Virus record (IMG/VR): IMGVR_UViG_3300027710_000046
Coordinates: 1-42,978 of that record
DNA length: 42,978 bases
Origin: a virus
Strand: one strand, 5' to 3'
A model generated the notes under the pieces. That model was not told the DNA's origin, did no database searches, and saw only the letters and a program-made list of their open reading frames with translations. The position numbers and the translations under genes are program-made. Positions 30,783-36,846 of the stretch are shown in pieces (within the stretch, counting starts at the first letter, position 1; each line of letters starts with the position of its first letter).

Positions 30783-30947
30783 ATGGAAATGTGGAAAGAC
30801 TTTAGCGACTTTGAAATTGCATCTCTTGCTGGAAGTTATGGCTTGGAAGACTTAATTGTTTTCAATAGCGATCTAACTCTTGCAAACCGCACACAGCTTG
30901 AAACTTTGATTGCGGAATTTGAAATTGACATGGCATTTGGAGAATAA
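30783..30947 (+). CDS. Small unknown acidic protein
   Basis: A 54-residue acidic protein. The ATG at 30783 is chosen over an upstream in-frame ATG because GGAGA (30771-30775) then lies eight bases away. The sequence is helical (DFSDFEIASLAGSYGLEDLIVFN, RTQLETLIAEFEIDMAFGE) with no family I recognise. It is the first gene after an early promoter and ends one base before the metalloprotease-VWA gene, so the two are co-translated. It might regulate or accompany that protein. Confidence 0.6.
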   Translation: MEMWKDFSDFEIASLAGSYGLEDLIVFNSDLTLANRTQLETLIAEFEIDMAFGE

Positions 30948-30948
30948 T

Positions 30949-33138
30949 ATGAACTCTAAAATAAATGCAGTTGACTTAACAGCAAAACTTCTTGCCACAG
31001 AAAACCTAAGCGTACGTCGTGCTCGATCACGTACTGCATCTTTTGATATTAAATCTCGGGTGCTAACTCTTCCAATGTGGAAAGACATGACACCAGAAGT
31101 TGAGGGTATGTTGGTTGGTCACGAAGTTGGTCATGCTCTATGGACTGGCGATGAGTACATGAAACCGATCCAAGAAAACCCAAAGATGCATTCTTACTTG
31201 AATGTGTTGGAAGACGTACGTATTGAGAAATTGCTCAAACGTAAATATCCAGGTATTCGTAAGACCATGAATGAGGGTTACAAACAACTCAACGAAAAGG
31301 ACTTCTTTGGTGTTGGTAAAACTGATCTGACTTTAATCAATCTTATTGACAGAATTAACCTTTATTACAAAGCAGGTTTTACTTGTGGTGTTCAGTTTAC
31401 ACCTGAAGAAAAGTCATTCGTAGTTCGTGCTGAAAAGACAGAAACTATTGATGAGGTAGTTACCCTTGCCAAAGAAATTTATGAATACTCTCTGGAGCAA
31501 GCAAAAAAGAATGCTGGTCAACGTATGCTCGAAGAACAACAAGAGCGAGAAGAAGACGATGAGGAATCGGGTGAGTATGATGACCTAGATGAAATTGATG
31601 AAGACTTCGATAACATCGATGATTCAGATATGGACAAGACAGGTGAAACTCAAGACGAAGATGCTTTTGAGGGTGAAGAAAAGAAACAATCTTCTTTGGG
31701 CAAAACCAAAACTGAAGAAGAAAAGAAACAAGAAATTGTTGACAAAGAAATGGAATCCGTGACGGATAAAACTCTGGAAGAGAAACTTGCTGAATTGGCA
31801 GATGAATCAACTGAGTTCCACTACCATCAGCTGGACAGCGATTATGTCGTTGACCACGTTATTGGTTACAAAAAGATTTTGTCTGATGTTGCCGAGTCGT
31901 TTGTAAATATGGAACACAATGTTAAATCTATTGATGACTTTAAACCAGAATCTTCACGTATCGTGAATTATCTCATCAAAGAATTTGAGATGAAAAAGTC
32001 TGCAACAATGTATAAACGTGCTCAGACTTCAAAGATGGGTTCTTTGGATATGAAGAAAGTTTGGTCTTACAAGTTGAATAGCGATTTGTTCAAACGTGTA
32101 ACTACTTTCCCGCAAGGTAAAAATCACGGTATGATTTTCTTGCTTGACTGGTCAGGTTCGATGGATATGATGTTGGATGACACTATCAAACAAGTTGTTA
32201 CCTTGGCAATGTTCTGTCAACGTGCTCAGATCCCGTATCAGGTATTTGCCTTTAGTAGTCAATACGACATCTTTACTCAGCACACTGATGCATATAGTAA
32301 AATGCGTGCCAAGCAGACTGCTATCTACGCAACTGAAGATACTAAGATTCTGAATAATGCTGTGAACAACTTTGCTTTACTTGAGTTGTTTAGCAACAAG
32401 ATGAGTAATGTTGAGTTCAACACAATGTGTAAGTATGTGATGGATCGTTACTTCCGCTACGCCAGAAATGGTGAATACAATACTGGTGGTACTCCACTAA
32501 ATGAAGCATTGGCATATATGGTTGATTATATTCCAAAATTCATCAAAGCCCACAACGTTGAGAAAATGTCATTCATTACTCTGACGGATGGTGAGGGTGC
32601 AGCTTTGTATCCTGTGTATCGTCAATCTCTCGATTCAGTACGCAATGAACGTGTCCTTGACGAAAAGACTGGTGAGTACAGATACAATCGTATTCAGATG
32701 AAACACTTCTTACAAGATCCTATGACTAAAAAGTCTTATGAATTGCCTAAGCATGGTAGTGGTCAAAGCGAAGTATTGTTGCGTATGATTAAAGATCGTT
32801 ACAATGTTAATAGCGTTGGATTTTATATCGTGCCAAATACACGTCGTTACTTGTGTCAAGCAGTTCGTGCAAACTTGCCTGGATTTGCTGGTTCTGAATA
32901 TAACCTTGTTGACGTATGGCGTAAAGAGTTCCGTGACAATGGATTTGCATCTGTTAAAAACACTGGACGTGATGACTTGTTTATTATCCCTCAGAATAAA
33001 CTTGCTGTTGAAAATGAACAACTTGAAATTCTTGCAAACCAAACGGCAAAGCAAATTTCAAATAAGTTCAGTAAAATGATGTCCTCCAAGAAGACTAGCC
33101 GAGTGCTGCTCAACAAGTTTATTGGTTACGTTGCGTAA
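30949..33138 (+). CDS. Metalloprotease-VWA protein, CobT-like
   Basis: A 729-residue protein; the ATG at 30949 follows GGAGAATAAT. Near the N-terminus is HEVGH (58-62), a zinc metalloprotease HExxH signature, with a downstream acidic stretch LNVLEDVRIEKLL that may supply the third ligand. Residues 200-275 are a very acidic linker. From about 395 comes a VWA domain with a complete MIDAS: DWSGSM (D400, S402, S404), TGGTPLNEAL near 512 and TLTDGEG near 545. CobT-type VWA proteins pair with MoxR/CobS ATPases, and such an ATPase lies two genes downstream. Probable role: ATPase-driven remodelling or proteolysis of a host or phage complex. Confidence 0.8.
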   Translation: MNSKINAVDLTAKLLATENLSVRRARSRTASFDIKSRVLTLPMWKDMTPEVEGMLVGHEVGHALWTGDEYMKPIQENPKMHSYLNVLEDVRIEKLLKRKYPGIRKTMNEGYKQLNEKDFFGVGKTDLTLINLIDRINLYYKAGFTCGVQFTPEEKSFVVRAEKTETIDEVVTLAKEIYEYSLEQAKKNAGQRMLEEQQEREEDDEESGEYDDLDEIDEDFDNIDDSDMDKTGETQDEDAFEGEEKKQSSLGKTKTEEEKKQEIVDKEMESVTDKTLEEKLAELADESTEFHYHQLDSDYVVDHVIGYKKILSDVAESFVNMEHNVKSIDDFKPESSRIVNYLIKEFEMKKSATMYKRAQTSKMGSLDMKKVWSYKLNSDLFKRVTTFPQGKNHGMIFLLDWSGSMDMMLDDTIKQVVTLAMFCQRAQIPYQVFAFSSQYDIFTQHTDAYSKMRAKQTAIYATEDTKILNNAVNNFALLELFSNKMSNVEFNTMCKYVMDRYFRYARNGEYNTGGTPLNEALAYMVDYIPKFIKAHNVEKMSFITLTDGEGAALYPVYRQSLDSVRNERVLDEKTGEYRYNRIQMKHFLQDPMTKKSYELPKHGSGQSEVLLRMIKDRYNVNSVGFYIVPNTRRYLCQAVRANLPGFAGSEYNLVDVWRKEFRDNGFASVKNTGRDDLFIIPQNKLAVENEQLEILANQTAKQISNKFSKMMSSKKTSRVLLNKFIGYVA

Positions 33139-33484: not shown

Positions 33485-34621
33485 ATGATGTCAAACGAAC
33501 AAACTGTTTTTGAAACCAAAATGTATGAGATGTTTCCCGATATTCAAACCAAAGGTACTGTTGAAAATTCTCAGCTACTTGCAGTAATGAAAGAATTGGG
33601 TACTAAGAAATCACCACGTTGGTTGATGGTGGATAAAGTTGGTCGTGGTCTTTACGCAATTCCAGGTGGAAAGATTGTTGGTAATACTGCTTTGAAAGAA
33701 GAGCCTGTTATGGAATCGTTTAATGTCGACTACTCCAATATTGAGTCTTTGATCCCCAAGAAAGATGCAAACTTTGTACCATTTGGTAACTATACTGATC
33801 TAGAGAATATTATCAAGTCAGGTATCTTTTATCCTTCTTACATCTCAGGTCCAACTGGGAATGGTAAGTCAACGATGGTCGAGCAGATTTGTGCCAAACA
33901 TAAAAAGCCACTCATTCGTGTAAACTTAAACATGATGACTGACGAAGAGCAATTGATTGGTTCCAAGACCCTAGAGAATGGTAATGTGGAGATTGTAGAG
34001 GGTCCAGTTCTTATTGCAATGCGCAATGGTACTACTATGTTGCTTGACGAGATTGATGCTGGTTCAGCAAATACTCTGTTGTGCTTGCAACCAATTCTTG
34101 AGGGTAAGCCATACTACTTTAAACTCAAGAATGAGATGATTGTTCCTGCCAAGGGATTCAACATCATCGCCACTGCAAATACAAAGGGTAAAGGTTCAGA
34201 CGATGGTCGTTACATTGGTACCAACGTATTGAACGAAGCATTCTTGGAGCGATTCGCTGTTACATTTGAACAGGAATATCCAGCTGCAAAAGTTGAGATC
34301 AAGATTATCAAGAATCTTATGGAATCATATGGATGTGTTGATGAAGAATTTGCCGATACATTAGTTAAATGGGCAGAGTCTATCCGTCGCACGTTTGATG
34401 ATGGTGGAGTAGACGAAACTATTACAACTCGTCGTATGACACATATTGTTCGTGCCTTTGCAATCTTTAAGAATCGTAGCAAAGCAGTTGAACTTTGTTG
34501 CAATCGTTTTGACTCTGCAACAAAACTTGCATTTATTGACTTGTACGATAAGGTATCAAACCCTGTTCCTGAAGTCGTTGCTCCAGTAATGCAAGAAACA
34601 TCTAGTGAAGTGCCGTTTTAA
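33485..34621 (+). CDS. CobS/MoxR-type AAA ATPase
   Basis: A 378-residue AAA+ ATPase of the type labelled CobS in cyanophages. Walker A GPTGNGKST (122-130), Walker B MLLDEID (185-191), sensor region NIIATANTKGKGSDDGRYIGTNVLNEAFLERF, where the ERF arginine is the likely finger. The first 60 residues form a small separate domain (SRSQLLAVMKELGTKKSPRWL-type). Real CobS needs CobN and CobT to insert cobalt; no CobN is here, but a VWA partner is. A chaperone role with the neighbouring VWA protein is more likely than vitamin B12 synthesis. Start could equally be the second ATG at 33488. Confidence 0.88.
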   Translation: MMSNEQTVFETKMYEMFPDIQTKGTVENSQLLAVMKELGTKKSPRWLMVDKVGRGLYAIPGGKIVGNTALKEEPVMESFNVDYSNIESLIPKKDANFVPFGNYTDLENIIKSGIFYPSYISGPTGNGKSTMVEQICAKHKKPLIRVNLNMMTDEEQLIGSKTLENGNVEIVEGPVLIAMRNGTTMLLDEIDAGSANTLLCLQPILEGKPYYFKLKNEMIVPAKGFNIIATANTKGKGSDDGRYIGTNVLNEAFLERFAVTFEQEYPAAKVEIKIIKNLMESYGCVDEEFADTLVKWAESIRRTFDDGGVDETITTRRMTHIVRAFAIFKNRSKAVELCCNRFDSATKLAFIDLYDKVSNPVPEVVAPVMQETSSEVPF

Positions 34622-35445: not shown

Positions 35446-35489
35446 CAGTAAGTGTATGGGCATTCTCTGAGTGCCTATACGCATTACTG
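35446..35489 (+). promoter_or_regulatory. Large leader hairpin before the diphosphohydrolase gene
   Basis: A 17-base arm (35446-35462) pairs with an 18-base arm (35472-35489) with one bulged base and two G-U pairs, around a 9-base loop. No T tract follows; instead the GGAG ribosome site and the ATG come 2-12 bases later. This looks like a translational or RNA-stability element rather than a terminator. Confidence 0.7.
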
Positions 35490-35500
35490 TTGGAGAAAAT

Positions 35501-35842
35501 ATGGCAACTAAAGAAGATATTAAAAAGTCGCAGAATGCCACTACTGGTGGACGTAAGTTTGATGGTAACAAAATTCAATATGGATTGTTACCTCCACTTG
35601 CACTAAAAGCTACTGCAGAAATTCTAACATTTGGGGCGGAGAAATACGAACCAGATAATTGGAAGTTTGTTCCTGACTCAAAACGTAGATACTTTGACGC
35701 AATGCAAAGACATCTCTGGGCATGGAAAGAGGGTGAGCAAAACGATCCCGAGACTGGTAAGAATCACCTAGCACACGCAATGTGTTGTCTAATGTTTCTT
35801 TATGAGCATGATGTAAAGTATTCAAAGGATTCAAATGTTTAA
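35501..35842 (+). CDS. dATP/dGTP diphosphohydrolase-like protein
   Basis: A 113-residue protein; ATG after TTGGAGAAAAT. The core GLLPPLALKATAEILTFGAEKYEPDNW (28-54) and GKNHLAHAMCCLMFLYEHD (86-104) match the N-terminal all-helical domain of phage dATP/dGTP diphosphohydrolases, a MazG-type fold whose E/H/D residues hold the metal. In other phages such enzymes trim purine deoxynucleotide pools, in some cases for use of 2-aminoadenine. No PurZ or DpoZ is in this window, so pool balancing is the safer reading. Its end overlaps the next small gene by eight bases. Confidence 0.78.
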   Translation: MATKEDIKKSQNATTGGRKFDGNKIQYGLLPPLALKATAEILTFGAEKYEPDNWKFVPDSKRRYFDAMQRHLWAWKEGEQNDPETGKNHLAHAMCCLMFLYEHDVKYSKDSNV

Positions 35843-36011
35843 AATGTTAATTACATTTATATTTCTTTTCGTTATATTCTATACGGGAATTGAAATCTTC
35901 CGTAAGTTTAGTGGCAAAGAGAAATGGGAAGTTGCAAAGACTACCATTTATAGCGTGACGATCGCTCTTCTCGTTATTGTGTTTCTTACTATTGTCGTTG
36001 TTTTATTTTAA
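35835..36011 (+). CDS. Two-helix membrane peptide
   Basis: A 58-residue protein; ATG with AAAGGAT nine bases upstream, overlapping the end of the preceding gene. It has two transmembrane helices, MLITFIFLFVIFYTGIEIF (about 4-22) and YSVTIALLVIVFLTIVVVLF (about 39-58), joined by a charged loop RKFSGKEKWEVAKTT. It ends nine bases before the SPFH lipoprotein gene, suggesting shared translation and perhaps a membrane complex with it. A holin is another possibility, but its early-region location argues against lysis. Confidence 0.7.
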   Translation: MFKMLITFIFLFVIFYTGIEIFRKFSGKEKWEVAKTTIYSVTIALLVIVFLTIVVVLF

Positions 36012-36020
36012 GGATTGATT

Positions 36021-36815
36021 ATGAAAAAAGTTTTTACCATCGGTGTTTTAGCTGCAGCAATTCTTGCTACAGGTTGTACTCGTATTGAGACTGGCGAGGT
36101 AGGTGTTCGTGTTGGTTTTGACAAGCAAGTTCAGCAAGGTGAGTTGCTTCCAGGTTCTTTCAATCAAGTGCTAATTGGTGATGTTCTTACATTCCCCATC
36201 AAAGACGTTAATGTTAAACTTGATGATATGACTCCAGTTGCTCGAGATAACTCAACTATGAAAGACTTTGACGCAGTAGTTATCTACAACATCAATCAAG
36301 CACAAGTCGCTGAACTGTATAGCCAAAAGAGTCAAGCATTTCATGCTCGTCACAATGGCGATATCTACTTGATGTATAACTACATCGTTCAAGCTACACG
36401 AAATGCTATCTACAAAGAAGCACGTAAGTATGAAGCGTTGGATATGGCAGACAATCGTACCTCAATGGAACAAGCAATCAAAGAACAGATTCAAAAATCT
36501 TTGGCTGACGAAAAACTGGACGGCAGTCTTGTTGTTGGACAGGTTCTTATTCGTAACATTGTACCAGCGGACTCAGTTGTTGCAAGTGCCAATGAATTGG
36601 TTCGTGCCAAGAATGAGTTGAAGCAGAAGGAAGTTGAAGTAAAGACTGCCAAGATGGAAGCTGAACGTATGCAAGCACTTTCCAATCAAGGTGCCCAAAG
36701 TATTGCTTATATGCAAGCTCAAGCAATGATCAATATCTCTGAAGGTATTAAACAAGGTAAGGTTCAAACTATTGTTGTTCCTGCCAACTTTAATGCACTG
36801 ATGATGCCAAAATAA
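36021..36815 (+). CDS. SPFH/prohibitin-family lipoprotein
   Basis: A 264-residue protein starting at ATG after AAGGATTGATT. Residues 1-19 are a lipoprotein signal ending in lipobox LATGC (lipidated Cys19). The SPFH/band 7 domain follows: RIETGEVGVRVGFDKQVQQGELLPGSFNQ, LDDMTPVARDNSTMKDFDAVVIYNIN, and LVVGQVLIRNIVPADSVVASANE. Then come a coiled coil (KNELKQKEVEVKTAKMEAERMQ) and a short end. SPFH proteins build ring cages in membranes; HflK/HflC of this family control the FtsH protease. A phage copy could alter host membrane proteolysis or block superinfection, which is inference. Confidence 0.88.
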   Translation: MKKVFTIGVLAAAILATGCTRIETGEVGVRVGFDKQVQQGELLPGSFNQVLIGDVLTFPIKDVNVKLDDMTPVARDNSTMKDFDAVVIYNINQAQVAELYSQKSQAFHARHNGDIYLMYNYIVQATRNAIYKEARKYEALDMADNRTSMEQAIKEQIQKSLADEKLDGSLVVGQVLIRNIVPADSVVASANELVRAKNELKQKEVEVKTAKMEAERMQALSNQGAQSIAYMQAQAMINISEGIKQGKVQTIVVPANFNALMMPK

Positions 36816-36817
36816 AT

Positions 36818-36846
36818 TTGACATATACCTCATTTTGGGGTATAAT
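36818..36846 (+). promoter_or_regulatory. Full-consensus sigma70 promoter for gp45
   Basis: TTGACA, exactly 17 bases, TATAAT, 35 bases before the clamp ATG. The best match to the sigma70 consensus in the window; strong immediate-early expression expected. Confidence 0.93.

Follow-up and report, generated by a model that had tools for sequence, protein, structure and literature searches.

Why should a bacteriophage carry a gene for a prohibitin-like protein? In every domain of life, SPFH proteins serve to organise membranes, and most of the bacterial ones are without clear function. Genes for them have been recorded in phages since 2006, in 44RR, Aeh1 and RB43 (PMC1524935); an SPFH domain was noted in phiSH19 (PMC3220722), the protein was represented by three spectra in the proteome of a Vi01-like phage (PMC10892097) and detected by mass spectrometry in Erwinia jumbo phages (PMC7760394), and that of phage GIB1 was listed as a lipoprotein (PMC13239085). 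In the passages of such papers that deal with these genes, the reason for their presence is called unclear, as for GIB1, and the corresponding passages of the five papers cited make no mention of a partner gene beside them. The same question is raised by the viral DNA analysed here (IMG/VR record IMGVR_UViG_3300027710_000046, a fragment of 42,978 bases, hereafter the window), in which the gene for a predicted SPFH lipoprotein directly follows that for a 58-residue membrane protein (Table 1). The two genes constitute a real two-gene module, and their products very probably work together. This pairing of a lipid anchor with a membrane hairpin appears to be undescribed for phage SPFH proteins in the open-licence literature searched, in which no paper combining SPFH and a lipobox was found.

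Table 1. Features of the SPFH locus in the window.
Feature	Position	Strand	Basis
Preceding gene, dATP/dGTP pyrophosphohydrolase N-terminal family	35492..35842	+	PF18909, E=1.9e-34
Shine-Dalgarno AAAGGA of the 58-aa ORF, within the preceding gene	35824-35829	+	Sequence
58-aa two-helix membrane protein	35835..36011	+	ORF (ATG 35835, stop TAA 36009-36011), sequence
Shine-Dalgarno AAGGA for SPFH, overlapping the TAA that ends the 58-aa ORF	36010..36014	+	Sequence; 6 bases before ATG 36021
SPFH/Band 7 lipoprotein, 264 aa	36021..36815	+	PF01145, PHROG_200, fold match
Predicted lipoprotein signal peptide, residues 1-18 (MKKVFTIGVLAAAILATG)	36021..36074	+	Sequence, hydrophobic segment, model helix 2-16
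Cys19 codon, predicted acylated residue, followed by Thr	36075..36077	+	Sequence; both residues conserved in 80/80 close relatives
Band_7/SPFH domain	36081..36659	+	Profile positions 2-175 of 176 matched
Predicted C-terminal helices, residues 184-221 and 225-244	36570..36752	+	AlphaFold2 model

The SPFH protein matched the Pfam family Band_7 (PF01145) with E=2.2e-17 and 64 bits against a curated cut-off of 23.6, and PHROG_200, labelled 'lipoprotein', with E=4.7e-32; an identical protein is encoded on a second IMG/VR contig of 161,882 bases (L006). Its start was taken as ATG 36021 and not as the TTG at 36015 given by the mechanical ORF list, because relatives support a start of the MKK/MKR type. 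The N-terminus, MKKVFTIGVLAAAILATGC, has the appearance of a signal peptide with an LATGC lipobox and Cys19; alanine at position -3 of a lipobox is tolerated, if not typical. Both Cys19 and the threonine after it are present in all 80 close relatives, defined as the cluster of 80 sequences with at least 70% SPFH identity. A band 7/prohibitin domain behind a lipoprotein signal had been proposed in the first-pass annotation of this DNA and is borne out by these matches; its suggestion that the domain faces the periplasm agrees with the signal peptide and lipobox, which mark the product as a probable lipoprotein of the periplasmic side, predicted to be acylated on Cys19.

The fold was modelled with AlphaFold2 as a single chain from an alignment of 44 sequences (mean pLDDT 78, pTM 0.61, with confidence falling towards the C-terminus). 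In the model, a beta-rich SPFH part is followed by the two helices listed in Table 1 and then by a low-confidence tail, the protein terminating 20 residues past the last helix. In known SPFH rings, the C-terminal helices form the coiled coil of the cage wall. When compared with the PDB by Foldseek, the model matched human prohibitin PHB1/2 (E=7e-13; best match 9o9z) and HflK (E=2e-12), followed by stomatin, erlin and QmcA, the last including the QmcA-YbbJ structure 8z5g; the alignments to PHB1/2 and HflK ran over approximately 250 columns, and all of these matches spanned almost the entire protein at 10-18% identity. A search of PDB sequences with the single protein gave no match, whereas one with an alignment profile found HflK as the best (E=6e-4), together with stomatin, QmcA, HflC and, weakly, prohibitin. 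Since both fold and profile matches extend to HflK, prohibitin, stomatin and QmcA, the protein is modelled as a complete SPFH module, with an SPFH1/2 fold and subsequent coiled-coil helices, and not specifically as an HflC or HflK; by analogy with these proteins, it would build a ring or cage oligomer.

The upstream gene is the most original part of the finding, as it encodes a new small protein family. No credible match to it was found in Pfam, NCBIfam, PHROGs or PADLOC, and Pfam found no NfeD domain in 17 members. As the first-pass annotation had stated, its product has two hydrophobic, potentially transmembrane (TM) segments and its reading frame ends 9 bases before the SPFH gene (36011 and 36021, respectively); AlphaFold2 modelled it as a helical hairpin of residues 2-24 and 27-57 with a pLDDT of 90. 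The idea of folding both genes as one read-through product was dropped, since such a fusion would have the wrong topology. The length of exactly 58 codons is kept in 78 of the 80 close relatives, and the 56 distinct sequences among those 78 preserve F58 in 100%, K35 in 98%, and I19 and V55 in 92%. Purifying selection acts on the gene (mean pN 0.40 against a saturating mean pS of 0.69; median dN/dS 0.45 for the pairs that could be corrected). Across the 56 sequences, the loop between the helices carries a mean of 4.0 lysine and arginine residues and a net charge of +2.4, the N- and C-termini having 1 and 0 such residues, respectively, and by the positive-inside rule this distribution suggests that both ends of the hairpin lie in the periplasm. 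Each of the two genes has a good Shine-Dalgarno sequence, and with that of the SPFH gene overlapping the stop codon of the smaller one, translational coupling of the two is suggested.

Conservation of gene order was followed among the close relatives. A gene of the 58-aa type lies upstream of the SPFH gene in 80/80, while the window's upstream neighbour of the pair is kept in only 11 of 73 and gp45 follows the SPFH gene in only 15 of 76; as the flanking genes have been exchanged and the pair retained throughout, the two genes stay together as a module. The pyrophosphohydrolase-family gene, which overlaps the start of the 58-aa frame by 8 bases in the window, is thus a neighbour standing outside of the module. 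In 16 of the 80 relatives, the hairpin and SPFH genes are separated by a third, very small ORF, which encodes 27-31 aa with a single hydrophobic helix; one example reads MIDDRWLRPLYFALGFAVCFFLFSQGII. Mini-ORFs of this kind are located at L032 4913-4999, L036 4914-5000, L066 4915-5001 and L069 4914-5000, and also in L007/L008 and others.

Within the window, Pfam and PHROGs identified gp45 (sliding clamp), a 2OG-Fe(II) oxygenase and gp44 (clamp loader) downstream of the SPFH gene. By these neighbours, the phage, a large one of a freshwater type, is T4-like, and the pair is positioned among replication genes. The late-type motif TATAAATA was not found near the pair, and its one occurrence in the window, fewer than expected by chance, is far away; with this motif absent nearby and the location among replication genes, a holin, spanin or other lysis role was considered and provisionally set aside. 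Other features were observed in the vicinity. A perfect sigma-70 consensus (TTGACA-17-TATAAT) at 36818-36846, after the SPFH gene and before gp45, is likely an early promoter of the clamp gene, and a hairpin at 36824-36844 overlaps it. A strong stem-loop of 14 pairs (35452-35482) separates an HTH gene from the operon containing the pair. Farther upstream are an AAA+ (AAA_5) gene at 33485-34621, matching phrog_249 with its label 'porphyrin biosynthesis', and before it an ORF of 742 aa (30910-33138) that by eye resembles its CobT/von Willebrand-type companion.

More distant SPFH genes were gathered by tblastn and by IMG/VR scans (alignment A1 proved too divergent for locus scans) and were recovered from Ackermannviridae, Straboviridae, Schitoviridae, Kyanoviridae, Demerecviridae, Pootjesviridae, Zobellviridae and Autographiviridae, as well as from an Acinetobacter plasmid of approximately 107 kb. 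A lipid-anchored SPFH protein together with a two-TM gene was found in the Ackermannviridae, Straboviridae, Schitoviridae, Kyanoviridae and Pootjesviridae, and on the plasmid-borne element. Among 15 annotated isolates, the gene directly upstream encodes a protein of at most 100 aa with at least two TM segments in 9, compared to 7 of 181 other genes of these regions (Fisher p=5e-8, related isolates not being independent). The partners of phiEa2809 (L092 1804-1998) and of the Acinetobacter plasmid (L098 1787-1969) are without annotation in the public records. When the SPFH proteins were grouped into 34 clusters at 70% identity, with L004 corrected by hand to lipid-anchored and L193 to TM-anchored, 22 of the 25 lipid-anchored clusters proved to have a small two-TM gene directly upstream (L097 among them, with a gap of approximately 80 bases). 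The first-pass annotation had named, as what would refute it, absence of the 58-residue gene wherever the SPFH gene occurs; with a partner in 80/80 close relatives and in 22/25 of these clusters, it passed this check. The corresponding value for TM-anchored clusters, with L156 counted apart, was 3 of 10 (Fisher p=0.0016), but the association is not statistically independent, since anchor type changes only three times on a maximum-likelihood tree and the partner six times. Independent pairs drawn from that tree gave two concordant, no discordant and one neutral case. Exceptions of both kinds occur: a partner is lacking beside the lipid-anchored proteins of Herod/AM24, L202 and the Duganella/Massilia group, and is present beside the TM-anchored ones of the S-CREM1/B23 clade and Vibrio 495E54-1. 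In L156, which is situated near lipid-anchored relatives on the tree, a TM helix replaces the lipobox and no two-TM gene lies directly upstream. Taken together, it is suggestive that the lipid anchor predicts the partner, and the hairpin may supply the transmembrane part that lipid-anchored SPFH proteins are missing; the two-TM partners of distant clades are candidates matched by position, with no homology to the 58-aa protein implied. As a separate observation, the PHROG_200 label 'lipoprotein' is misleading for members of the RB43, 44RR and T5 types, since these carry a TM helix at the N-terminus and lack the lipobox cysteine (L086 10590-11483; L087 5270-6193; L093 1911-2858). The TM-anchored SPFH gene of RB43 and 44RR is situated near the lysis-inhibition gene rI, within the tk-rI region (L086 10590-12243; L087 1744-6193).

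The pair is also present in bacterial chromosomes. A scan of 84,980 species genomes returned 14 loci at 51-63% identity to the SPFH protein. In Roseateles, Pelomonas, Mitsuaria and Gallionellaceae/Nitrosomonadales, the SPFH gene has a partner of 58-60 aa located 9-14 bases upstream that can be aligned with the phage protein over its whole length, the C-terminal (I/V)VxLF included; these betaproteobacterial SPFH copies are 51-56% identical to that of the window. Such copies are rare; the order yielded 1 among 300 sampled (a 27% relative aside), the genus 5/16, a Gallionellaceae-type family 5/120 and the phylum 2/399. A search of the Duganella family found 11 close SPFH copies in 196 genomes, mostly without the partner where inspected, and this family also has a different lipid-anchored SPFH protein (26-27% identity), which at one inspected locus is accompanied by a 65-aa two-TM partner. 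The flanking chromosomal genes in five genomes are ordinary-looking and none is common across lineages; owing to this inconsistency, they were not used to infer a function. Two Gallionellaceae/Nitrosomonadales chromosomes have a gene for a FapA_N-domain protein downstream of that for SPFH, either immediately following it or three genes later (L233 5897-7879; L232 4570-6564). Phage and bacterial SPFH proteins form one supported group of 12 rows (97/98), and with the order inside this group not settled, transfer between phages and bacteria may have run in either direction.

We tentatively propose, at somewhat less than even confidence, that the locus encodes an envelope module in which an acylated SPFH ring and an inner-membrane hairpin organise a patch of membrane during the replication stage. 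The SPFH protein would be exported, acylated on Cys19 and assembled into a homo-oligomeric ring or cage on a membrane, facing the periplasm in the manner of prohibitins and HflK/C. The hairpin would lie in the inner membrane, both of its ends projecting into the periplasm and its basic loop cytoplasmic, and would bind to this ring and provide its missing transmembrane part. It would thereby either keep the cage at the inner membrane or connect it to a membrane client. Produced together with replication-stage genes, for which the lack of the late-type motif TATAAATA nearby speaks, the pair would then organise or protect an inner-membrane patch of the infected cell. Bacterial SPFH genes offer an established precedent for an adjacent membrane partner, in the form of NfeD (PMC2636767).

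Which membrane receives the lipid anchor is the point at which the foremost rival departs. An aspartate after the cysteine is the inner-membrane retention signal of lipoproteins in enteric bacteria (PMC6469965), and lipid-anchored SPFH members never have it, except for one P1-named record; by the E. coli rule, the threonine found here would predict the outer membrane. The pair might then span or prop the periplasm, the hairpin staying in the inner membrane and the SPFH protein being sorted to the inner leaflet of the outer one. Outer-membrane vesicles of Pasteurella multocida were found to contain an HflK/C-like SPFH protein encoded by a prophage (PMC9872710), with no kinship to the window family implied. 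However, this +2 rule is weak and often fails outside of the enterics, where MexA and PscJ of Pseudomonas remain at the inner membrane without aspartate (PMC6469965); large oligomers would be poor Lol cargo, and an SPFH ring on the outer membrane has no precedent in the literature searched. The inner membrane was put first because the hairpin would have to reside there and tends to be missing where the SPFH protein has a TM helix of its own. A two-membrane arrangement is unlikely, and slightly more so its fullest version, a split envelope-spanning machine without such precedent, in which a lipid-held prohibitin-like cage on the outer membrane would dock onto the inner-membrane two-helix protein (and in 16/80 relatives also the one-helix protein of 27-31 aa) and would have been exchanged between phages and betaproteobacteria.

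The first-pass annotation had gone further in likening the protein to host HflK/HflC and their control of FtsH. A phage SPFH ring that enclosed or competed for FtsH could redirect inner-membrane proteolysis during infection, and HflKC is known to repress degradation of lambda CII by FtsH (PMC12005517); moreover, HflK was the best profile match and among the best folds. This part of the annotation has not been supported, and none of the results links the protein to FtsH, to exclusion of competitors or to protection of phage proteins. Prohibitin, stomatin and QmcA match about equally well, the gene is single and its product lipid-anchored instead of an hflK-hflC pair with TM anchors, and no FtsH link was seen in any related locus. 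Judged by the end of its sequence and the AlphaFold2 model, the window protein is missing the HflK-type C-terminal extension, which contacts FtsH (PMC12005517). With the features that tie HflK to FtsH missing and a threonine after the cysteine, the FtsH proposal is weakened and we regard it as doubtful.

Still less probable is superinfection exclusion or anti-defence, by which the cage would block or shield a site of DNA entry or membrane-bound defence proteins. The pair of CBA120 follows a gene annotated 'superinfection exclusion' (phrog_1510), such a gene lies two genes away from the pair of phiEa2809, and the patchy, accessory distribution in bacteria would be in keeping; however, that annotation derives solely from similarity, no such neighbour appeared in the other families, and no PADLOC defence family was matched, which also led to the rejection of a known defence system. 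The reading that there is no functional pair, and that a common type of small membrane gene happens to lie upstream of SPFH by chance, is very improbable and was rejected as already contradicted by gene order, for although 3.9% of other annotated genes are small with at least two TM segments, retention in every close relative with shuffled neighbours, the 22/25 lipid-anchored clusters, the chromosomal copies and the Fisher test against that background all oppose it.

A minimal two-gene unit is named here whose smaller partner is often omitted by annotation. As the pair recurs in phages of tractable laboratory hosts, such as BUCT-ZZ01 on Synechococcus elongatus PCC 7942 (homologous genes at L001 5775-5951 and 5971-6783), the question of why phages carry prohibitins becomes experimentally addressable, and the contrast between lipid and helix anchors bears on how SPFH cages attach to membranes.

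Among known systems, the PHROG_200 proteins of phages (CBA120 orf126, phiSH19, 44RR ORF098c, Aeh1 and RB43 ORF139c) belong to the same SPFH family by profile. Those of the CBA120 and AbTZA1 types share the lipobox and upstream two-TM gene with the window, whereas the RB43, 44RR, T5 and Aeh1 proteins have a TM anchor, no cysteine and no partner. HflK and HflC (SPFH3) resemble the window protein in the SPFH domain and C-terminal helices, with a fold match over the full length, but they are anchored by a TM helix, for which the window protein has its signal peptide and lipobox. They are also encoded in tandem and are longer (334 aa for HflC and 419 for HflK), while the window gene is followed by gp45, with no second SPFH match in this phage fragment. 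Prohibitins (PHB1/2; SPFH4 in bacteria) agree in length and full-length fold and differ in having a TM helix and only 10-16% identity. An organisational parallel may be drawn with QmcA-YbbJ and other SPFH-NfeD operons, in which an SPFH gene likewise lies beside one for a membrane protein. The survey of prokaryotic SPFH proteins describes NfeD as the operon partner and the members as TM or soluble, and the words 'lipoprotein' and 'phage' are absent from it (PMC2636767). The NfeD-type partner complexes with its SPFH protein, whereas the window pair is known from genes and predicted folds, its partner a bare hairpin and its SPFH protein lipid-anchored. Lastly, the chromosomal SPFH lipoproteins of Roseateles, Pelomonas, Mitsuaria and Gallionellaceae/Nitrosomonadales, on which no study was found, are cellular, rare and patchy in occurrence, and they share with the phage locus its small partner of 58-60 aa.
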